57,941 nt of DNA from an uncultured Pelagibacteraceae bacterium. Lineage in GTDB: Bacteria; Pseudomonadota; Alphaproteobacteria; Pelagibacterales; Pelagibacteraceae. The position numbers and the translations under genes were made by a program. The DNA is taken from assembly GCA_902595885.1 (NCBI GenBank), contig CACJRQ010000007.1, forward strand, positions 1 through 57,941, given 5' to 3'. The notes under the pieces were generated by a model. The model did not search any database. It was not told the DNA's origin and saw nothing but the letters and a program-made list of their open reading frames with translations. Below are positions 54,555 to 56,085 of this stretch, in pieces; positions within the stretch are counted from its first letter, which is position 1; each line of letters begins with the position of its first letter.

Positions 54555-55082
54555 CTAATTAATAGATTTTAATATTTTTAGTGGAAGTGGAGCTTCTGGG
54601 TATTTTCTTTGACACAACTTTTCATAGTTTTCACAAAAACTCATGATAGTTTTTTGAACTTCTTTTTTATCAATATTTGAAAGATTAAGCTTTTTAATTA
54701 ATTCACTGCAATTTTTTTCTAGTTCTTTTATTTGTTCTCCTGAAAAAAATTCTCCTGTTTCTATTTCCCAATAAGTGTCTTGAATTTCTTCATCGCTTAA
54801 ATCATTAAGTTTTTTCTGTAATAATTTGATAGTCTCGTCCTTAGTTTCCTTATCTCTCATAGGAGAATTCTTAAGTTTTCCAAGGCATTTATCTCTTAAT
54901 CCATCAATGAAATGAAAATAAGGTTTACCTTCTGAAAAATCTCTAAAGTGATTTGTATTAAAATATTTATCAATAGCTGTTTCTGTTGAAACCTTCTCTT
55001 TACCCTTAATTATAGCTACCTGAACATAAACTTCTTGGCTAATATATTCTTCAATATGATCTTTAACTTTTTGAGGTATCAT
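54555..55082 (-). CDS. Protein of unknown function, mostly helical
   Basis: 175 residues, no signal peptide or membrane segment. Highly charged, predicted helical throughout; four cysteines at scattered positions (for example CLGKL, NCSEL, FCENYEKLCQ). No motif I recognise. Thirteen bases downstream of the cytochrome c' gene, so probably co-transcribed with it, which may be a clue to a redox or haem-related role. Start ATG at 55082 has only a weak upstream site. Confidence 0.65.
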   Translation of the reverse strand: MIPQKVKDHIEEYISQEVYVQVAIIKGKEKVSTETAIDKYFNTNHFRDFSEGKPYFHFIDGLRDKCLGKLKNSPMRDKETKDETIKLLQKKLNDLSDEEIQDTYWEIETGEFFSGEQIKELEKNCSELIKKLNLSNIDKKEVQKTIMSFCENYEKLCQRKYPEAPLPLKILKSIN

Positions 55083-55095
55083 TCTTACTTAATAA

Positions 55096-55563
55096 TTAAT
55101 GTTCTTCTCTGTACCTGTTGTGACAAGCCTTACAATTGCTCCACATAAATTTAGTTAGTGTGCCTCGAATATCATCTGCATCCTCGATTACTGATACAAG
55201 TTTTGTCATATCATCTGAGGCTTTTTGCATTAATGCATTGAAGTCATCTTTTTCATCCCAAATTGTTAGTAAAGCTTCAGTATCAAAACCTTCTTGTGTA
55301 TTTTCGGGAAATAAATTTATTAAAACTCTGTAATTTTCACTCATTTCTAGCATAAGTTTTTTTGCTTTTTCAAAATCTCCTTTTGACGAGAAAGCTTGTA
55401 CTCTTTTGGCTGTACTATAGTTTTTACTAAACAATGCTTGCCTACTTTTAATAATTTCTTCAACTGTTAACTCAGCATTACTAGATGAGACGAAAAATAC
55501 GCTTAAAAATAATAATAAAATTATTTTAATATATTTTTTTATGTGGTTAAATAAGAGATGCAT
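55096..55563 (-). CDS. Cytochrome c' family protein
   Basis: 155 residues with a signal peptide ending near residue 30 (FVSSSNA|ELTVEE), so periplasmic. Haem attachment motif CKACH is near the C-terminus (residues about 144-148), as in cytochrome c' and c-556. The four-helix bundle pattern is visible. Likely binds NO or transfers electrons to the neighbouring cytochrome b561. The start ATG shares the hexamer ATGCAT with the divergent b561 gene. Confidence 0.85.
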   Translation of the reverse strand: MHLLFNHIKKYIKIILLLFLSVFFVSSSNAELTVEEIIKSRQALFSKNYSTAKRVQAFSSKGDFEKAKKLMLEMSENYRVLINLFPENTQEGFDTEALLTIWDEKDDFNALMQKASDDMTKLVSVIEDADDIRGTLTKFMWSNCKACHNRYREEH

Positions 55564-56085
55564 GTAACAAATACTTTAGCAGAGTATGGCATTATCTCAA
55601 AGGTGTTACATTGGCTCAGCGCAATCATTCTTTTTATACAAATACCTTTGGGGTTTTATCTGGTGGATTTAGATTTTGGTGAACAACGAATAACAATTGA
55701 GGATATTCACGTCACGCTAGGTTTAACTGTTTTTTATATAATAATAATAAGATTAATAAATAATATACTTAATCCAACTCCAAAATTAGATCCAAGTATT
55801 TTTAAAGGACAAAGGTTTCTTGCAAAGATGAACCATGTTCTTTTATATATTGCTATTTTAGCAATAACAATTTCAGGAATATTAAAAAAATTATTTAACG
55901 GTGAAACACTAACAATATTGTTTAGAGAAATTCAAATTAATGAAAATTTTGATTTAGCAGACCAGTTTTATGAAATTCATATTCTTTCAAATTATACACT
56001 TATCGGTTTAATAGTGCTTCATATAATTGCTGTAATTATTCACAAACTATTTTTTGGGGACAATTTATTAAAAAGAATTCTTTAA
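55558..56085 (+). CDS. Cytochrome b561 family membrane protein
   Basis: 175 residues with four membrane segments. Haem ligand histidines are expected in VLHWLSAIILFIQIPLG (near residue 18), DIHVTLGLTVFY (near 50), YEIHILSNYTLI (near 141) and VLHIIAVIIHKLF (near 157). It is the di-haem prokaryotic b561 type that transfers electrons between quinone or superoxide and a periplasmic partner. Divergent from the cytochrome c' gene with overlapping starts, so each promoter must lie inside the other gene. Confidence 0.88.
   Translation: MHVTNTLAEYGIISKVLHWLSAIILFIQIPLGFYLVDLDFGEQRITIEDIHVTLGLTVFYIIIIRLINNILNPTPKLDPSIFKGQRFLAKMNHVLLYIAILAITISGILKKLFNGETLTILFREIQINENFDLADQFYEIHILSNYTLIGLIVLHIIAVIIHKLFFGDNLLKRIL

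Follow-up and report, generated by a model that had tools for sequence, protein, structure and literature searches.

Results

Two Divergent Cytochrome Genes Share One Start-Codon Hexamer

The stretch of DNA analyzed (the window, 57,941 nucleotides) is a single complete contig of a SAR11 genome of the Pelagibacteraceae, which comprises 1.12 Mb over 39 contigs. Near one end of the window, a single hexamer, ATGCAT (55558-55563), provides the start codons of two divergent genes: the ATG of the plus strand (55558-55560) opens a gene for a cytochrome b561, and the ATG of the minus strand (55563-55561) opens one for a cytochrome c' (Table 1). The c' product was matched by the PF01322 profile with 73.2 bits (cut-off 26.5) and carries a C-terminal CxxCH motif, CKACH, the motif of c-type heme attachment, whereas a search of NCBIfam with the same protein gave no match. 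Its N terminus, judged by eye, is a hydrophobic segment resembling a signal peptide. The b561 product was matched by the PF01292 profile with 78 bits (cut-off 30.1), and its score against NCBIfam PRK11513 was 46.5, under the cut-off of 170. These are two protein genes on opposite strands whose coding sequences genuinely overlap at their 5' ends, as judged from the frames and from homologues, that is, a divergent overlapping pair.

Table 1. Features of the c'/b561 junction in the window.
Feature	Position	Strand	Basis
Double start codon, ATGCAT	55558..55563	.	Sequence; kept in 72 of 112 distinct junctions
Cytochrome b561 (PF01292), 175 aa	55558..56085	+	E 1e-21; start backed by homologue conservation
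Cytochrome c' (PF01322), 155 aa	55096..55563	-	E 4.6e-20; single ATG/GTG/TTG start in reach
CKACH (CxxCH) near c' C terminus	55120..55134	-	Read from sequence
Candidate c' promoter, TTGAGA-16 nt-TAAAGT, TG before TAAAGT	55573..55600	-	Consensus match only
Candidate b561 -10, TATATT (55530-55535) or TATGTG (55540-55545)	55530..55545	+	Sequence, consensus match

c' is followed, 13 nt further downstream and in the same orientation, by a gene (54555-55082) encoding a 175-aa protein that matched no Pfam or NCBIfam family; this protein was recovered entire and without gaps in 67 near-identical loci.

The preliminary description of this DNA had held that no other start codon could serve c', and indeed no second ATG, GTG or TTG occurs in its frame between the preceding stop codon and a point some 20 codons into the gene. 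For b561, an in-frame TAA lies two codons 5' of the start, and the sole alternative within 20 codons is a GTG at codon 16. A misassigned start, with b561 beginning at this GTG or beyond and hence no overlap at all, was considered. Apart from the presence of the GTG in the window, such a later start is favored by a crude coding-score gene finder, which set it at 55663; homology was given precedence over this contrary result. The aligned codon 16 is ATG, GTG or TTG in 48 of 149 entries (a count in which the window figures three times) and none of these in the other 101. Furthermore, Tyr10 is present in 139 of 141 distinct loci and Gly11 in 128, the Pfam match begins at residue 10, and among 57 near relatives the pN/pS ratio is 0.14 for codons 2-15 and 0.11 for the remainder, which denotes purifying selection. 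The conservation of Tyr10 and the selection on codons 2-15 indicated that codon 16 is not the conserved start, and a later b561 start is very improbable. Both start codons thus lie where they had first been read, on the grounds of the Pfam matches, the frames and the conservation in homologues.

As a word, ATGCAT is not enriched in the window (21 copies, 25.8 expected). What is unusual is its placement on two real starts, kept across a clade, and not the word itself. In one locus (L249; G217:C1:777216), b561 apparently begins with GTG (GTGCAT), which occupies the same place, no ATG for this gene being found nearby; the 6-bp geometry is retained there and the palindrome is lost.

Conservation of the Pair and of Its Geometry

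The two genes were divergent in all 149 entries compared (148 loci and the window), and again in 66 of 66 loci carrying both genes in a second, overlapping set of 69, in which L248, L295 and L296 each lack one of the genes. Of 201 genomes of the genus, 68 gave a match to b561 and 71 to c', and every one of the 68 with b561 also has c'. Two of the three additional c' matches lie 389 and 542 nt from a contig end and the third is weak (28% identity). In a sample of 247 genomes of the order, both genes were present in 134, b561 alone in five, c' alone in two and neither in 106; this tally was obtained by comparing the lists by eye, and one of the c'-alone cases is a weak match.

To describe the junctions, the entry of the window and that of L031, whose junction DNA is identical, were excluded and the remaining 147 loci reduced to 112 distinct junctions, the shared junction of L148 and L126 being counted once. 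ATGCAT (spacing -6) accounted for 72 of them, CATATG (0) for 14 and CATG (-2) for 13. A DUF411-like gene lay between the two genes in seven, one showed a 21-nt overlap, and gaps of 18 nt (two junctions), 14 nt (two) and 3 nt (one) made up the rest. Elsewhere in the order (other families, other genera), the starts were separated by 16-20 nt, or by about 500 nt with a DUF411-like gene in between; G212, which belongs to another genus, and the distantly related G400 also show overlaps of 6 bp. L290 (157 nt, without a DUF411-like gene) and L284 (638 nt) belong to genomes in which stops break the c' frame. Whether homologues keep the hexamer, a check proposed in the preliminary description, can thus be answered in the affirmative within one clade and in the negative outside it.

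The intervening DUF411-like gene, transcribed in the direction of c', was observed in L105, L106, L108, L114, L121, L122, L126 and L148, and further in L242, L252, L274 and L282-L287. The protein of L108 was identified as DUF411 (PF04214, E 4e-25) and the others were assigned by sequence similarity; in L106 the frame is split into two pieces. In several of these separated loci, the DNA upstream of b561 resembles TATGTTATATTT, and the likeness of this DNA in distant loci hints at transfer of the whole as a cassette.

History of the Overlap

A tree of b561 without its first 20 residues was built for 55 representatives, thinned from 205 rows in which some genomes appear twice; L249, whose b561 has no ATG, was omitted, and L284 and L290 (genomes G244 and G472, with stops in the c' frame) are likewise absent. 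On this tree all geometry states together require 13 changes and the ATGCAT state only two, a number as low as this being obtained in none of 500 label shuffles. The ATGCAT rows form one supported group (98/92, 18 rows), which includes one lineage separated by a DUF411-like gene, and the outgroup rows have gaps of 16-18 nt. The 6-bp overlap thus looks like the product of one gain by compaction and one loss by insertion in the sampled tree.

Accordingly to such a course, the starts of the ancestor were probably 14-20 nt apart and would have moved, in Pelagibacter, to the abutting or overlapping positions of CATATG, CATG and ATGCAT. The separated state, on the other hand, changes seven times on the tree and is scattered over its lineages, and several distant lineages, the genus g4 among them, also have the DUF411-like gene between c' and b561, so that a simple gap is a less secure picture of the ancestor. 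Once formed, ATGCAT is locked, since its first three bases serve as the b561 start codon and its last three as that of c', with no substitute nearby. Ordinary selection on two start codons is sufficient to account for the conservation of the hexamer, and an extra function is unnecessary.

Leaders and Ribosome-Binding Sites

The first reading had placed the promoter and any ribosome-binding site of each gene inside its partner, with no ordinary upstream leader for either. As geometry this is right: any leader is antisense to the 5' coding sequence of the other gene. An mRNA carrying the b561 start must begin at or before 55558, and one carrying the c' start at or beyond 55563 on the opposite strand. 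From these limits it follows that the 5' ends of the two RNAs would share 6 nt or more and that the promoters would face each other within the codons of the partner.

Shine-Dalgarno motifs were sought as the 4-mers GGAG, GAGG, AGGA or AAGG at -18 to -4. None was found before b561 in any of the 112 distinct junctions, including the seven in which the DNA upstream is free. Before c', a 4-mer was present in 22 of 105 junctions, always AAGG at -14 to -11 and inside b561, and in none of the seven junctions with a DUF411-like insert. The same motifs were then counted in SAR11 genes with a single unambiguous start, near-copies and multi-start genes being removed. Among divergent genes they occurred in 0/20 with start spacings of up to 10 nt, 2/57 at 11-45 nt, 3/63 at 46-90 nt and 23/97 above 90 nt; in the co-directional classes the counts were 15/91, 16/62, 20/71 and 93/467. 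The difference between divergent genes spaced by up to 90 nt (5/140) and those spaced more widely (23/97) gave a Fisher p of 2.8e-6, in which genes of related genomes are not fully independent. As a class, divergent SAR11 genes with close starts would therefore mostly initiate without a Shine-Dalgarno motif, and a very short or near-leaderless mRNA devoid of this motif is plausible, at least for b561. A leader of a few to about 16 nt, with little use of Shine-Dalgarno pairing, is the most likely arrangement for each gene of the pair.

Nevertheless, leaderless initiation is not forced by the geometry, since a ribosome-binding site could sit in the coding sequence of the partner: this is illustrated by the AAGG before c' and, at another SAR11 junction described below, by the AGGA that precedes yggS in 3 of 30 loci. 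Long ordinary leaders, with transcripts that begin tens of nucleotides within the other gene and overlap extensively in antisense, would bring the locus close to the form of regulation known by the name of excludon. They would be in keeping with these embedded AAGG and AGGA motifs and with low synonymous variation in c' that reaches codon 25, some 70 nt ahead of b561 (see below). The complete lack of the 4-mers before b561 and their scarcity in the closely spaced divergent class, with the incomplete independence already noted, argue against them, and we consider long leaders unlikely.

Candidate Promoters

With short leaders, each gene most likely has its own promoter in the first codons of its partner. 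The candidate c' promoter spans codons 6-15 of b561, and RNA would start about 3 nt before the c' ATG; its TAAAGT and the accompanying -35 agree with the consensus at 9 of 12 positions. In nine of 12 nonredundant ATGCAT junctions the best -10 hexamer of c' lies at -15, a regularity that the conserved b561 codons also explain. The candidate -10 region of b561 lies within codons 7-12 of c', and would place the beginning of the RNA some 6-16 nt ahead of the ATG. The best -10 of b561 was found at -16 in 3 of 10 separated junctions (a nonredundant set), 8 of 12 CATATG junctions and 5 of 15 ATGCAT junctions, a position from which a leader of roughly 4 nt is predicted. The whole region holds four promoter-like sites, and 2.0 were expected from shuffles. 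These candidates are consensus matches in AT-rich DNA, in which -10-like hexamers abound, and they do not amount to proof.

Selection on the codons was examined through synonymous variation normalized by amino acid. It is low in c' codons 2-25, none of 105 windows being as low (permutation p 0.0008); of the five lengths compared, this one gave the strongest signal, with p 0.26 for codons 2-10 and p 0.09 for codons 2-15. The first codons of b561 showed no reduction. As controls, the gene downstream of c' showed a dip in codons 2-15 (p 0.009) and none in 2-25 (p 0.69), and DUF4396 gave p 0.14 for codons 2-15 and 0.10 for 2-25. Since the controls partly match the dip, the constraint on the c' codons may in part reflect translation and not a promoter, and it lends moderate support to a b561 promoter inside c'.

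In a broader sample of 32 divergent SAR11 genes with close starts, 28 plain -10-like hexamers were counted at -30 to -16, with about 11 expected from shuffles. A larger set of 57 genes gave 37 in the same bins and 18 in the next ten positions, counts that stand without a shuffle control. When a strict extended -10 pattern was sought near SAR11 starts, the first sample showed no enrichment. Separately, an EM motif search in 175 upstream regions of SAR11 yielded nothing usable, as it drifted towards GC-rich patterns of low frequency, and its output was set aside.

Proposed Mutual Exclusion and Possible Joint Function

It had also been proposed that the arrangement might impose mutual exclusion of expression. 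The hexamer would then be a device by which one start, when occupied by a polymerase or ribosome, shuts off the other. Opposed promoters whose RNAs begin at or outside the two ends of the hexamer, as required above, would have overlapping polymerase footprints, and the retention of ATGCAT in one clade is consistent with such a role. The proposal nevertheless found no support. The exact geometry varies outside the clade, and the near-exceptionless co-occurrence of the two genes in the order suits their joint use. In the available part of a study of E. coli bidirectional promoters, the five tested are described as showing no competition at basal activity, in a geometry different from the present one, and as competing once one direction is strongly activated (PMC12825309). 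Altogether, a hexamer acting to enforce mutual exclusion appears quite improbable.

The adjacency of a gene for a membrane b-type cytochrome to one for a periplasmic c-type cytochrome suggests instead that electrons may pass from b561 to c', and that the two products could have a joint function. Cytochrome c' often binds nitric oxide.

Recurrence of the Architecture in SAR11

The screen for similar junctions took in 210 divergent pairs among 1,648 called genes, in 1.66 Mb made up of 80 SAR11 stretches and the window. It revealed one more junction at which ATGCAT serves both starts, in an unrelated pair composed of a gene for a YggS-family protein (TIGR00044, E 9e-50) and a gene whose thiE-like product scored under the model cut-off (E 1.4e-8), at L162:16413-16418. 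yggS was matched in 87 of 101 genomes of the genus, and the 30 best-scoring loci (L298-L327) were compared. Among these best 30, 25 have ATGCAT together with an opposite frame of at least 100 codons beginning at the CAT, including a locus in the genome of the window itself (L308; G000:C3:12765). In six of the 25, L308 among them, another possible start of the partner lies nearby. The remaining five comprise one ATGCAC with an upstream partner start, one 9-bp overlap, one CATATG and two loci in which no partner frame was found, one of which still has ATGCAT. The AGGA upstream of yggS on such hexamers, mentioned above, lies 9-12 nt from the start, within the partner.

The arrangement belongs to a wider SAR11 habit. 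The spacing of -6 showed no clear excess: in the 80 stretches and the window, 85 raw head-to-head pairs with starts between -60 and +60 nt apart fell into 64 families, in which spacings of -6, 0 and +4 were each found twice and +2 once. A head-to-head spacing of 2 nt was also observed in four stretches, at L153:13785, L176:14359, L201:13989 and L208:16374, in a pair composed of a uracil-DNA-glycosylase-like and a secreted-protein-like gene.

It can be asked whether face-to-face, near-leaderless ATGCAT starts, with each promoter contained in the first codons of the other gene, are a recurring SAR11 architecture that arose independently in at least two pairs (c'/b561 and yggS/thiE-like), and whether occlusion between polymerases sets the ratio or the noise of the two proteins. 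This idea is tentative and, on balance, we hold it to be rather unlikely.

Discussion

The evidence from reading frames, homologues and the tree describes a real short divergent overlap, which probably arose by genome compaction and in which each gene most likely has its own promoter embedded in the partner and a short leader. In 'Ca. P. ubique', the median intergenic spacer is 3 nt (PMC2704228, PMC5069961).

Divergent overlaps are the rarest kind in prokaryotes. In the parts of the surveys available, they amount to 457 of 42,055 overlaps (PMC2478687), or to 331 set against 12,737 codirectional ones (PMC2174442), and the rarity of the short ones is ascribed to the room required by regulatory signals (PMC2478687, PMC2174442). 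All divergent overlaps longer than 60 bp examined in one study are described there as annotation errors (PMC2478687; also PMC2174442, PMC4161906). In common with the known short divergent overlaps, the present one joins protein genes of opposite strands at their 5' ends. Unlike them, it is filled by two entire start codons, and it has been checked against homologues and is not derived from annotation, so that its gain, drift and loss can be traced across SAR11.

A second comparison is offered by the bidirectional promoters with a shared -10 (Warman et al., PMC12825309), which likewise involve transcription in both directions and clashing polymerase sites. As these promoters are defined in the available part of that report, their RNA starts flank or fall within one shared -10. 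At the c'/b561 junction the start codons cross, and the RNAs would run towards and past each other; since the positions of the starts require the reverse order of RNA starts, a promoter of that type was excluded by deduction.

In a search of the literature by titles and the beginnings of abstracts, neither a c'/b561 overlap, nor ATGCAT double starts, nor a mapping of transcription starts in Pelagibacter was found described. Adjacent cytochrome c' and cytochrome b561 genes occur in other proteobacteria. The pair described here resembles these neighbors in consisting of standard PF01322 and PF01292 proteins encoded side by side, and only the geometry of its starts is notable.

The relatives of the pair provide a natural series of intermediates, from a gap through abutting starts and overlaps of 2 and 6 bp to separation by a whole gene. 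With this series one can ask how little DNA is needed between two bacterial starts, and whether translation in SAR11 begins on very short leaders. In our best reading, the c'/b561 pair is a well-documented addition to the rare class of divergent gene overlaps and an instance of extreme genome compaction.
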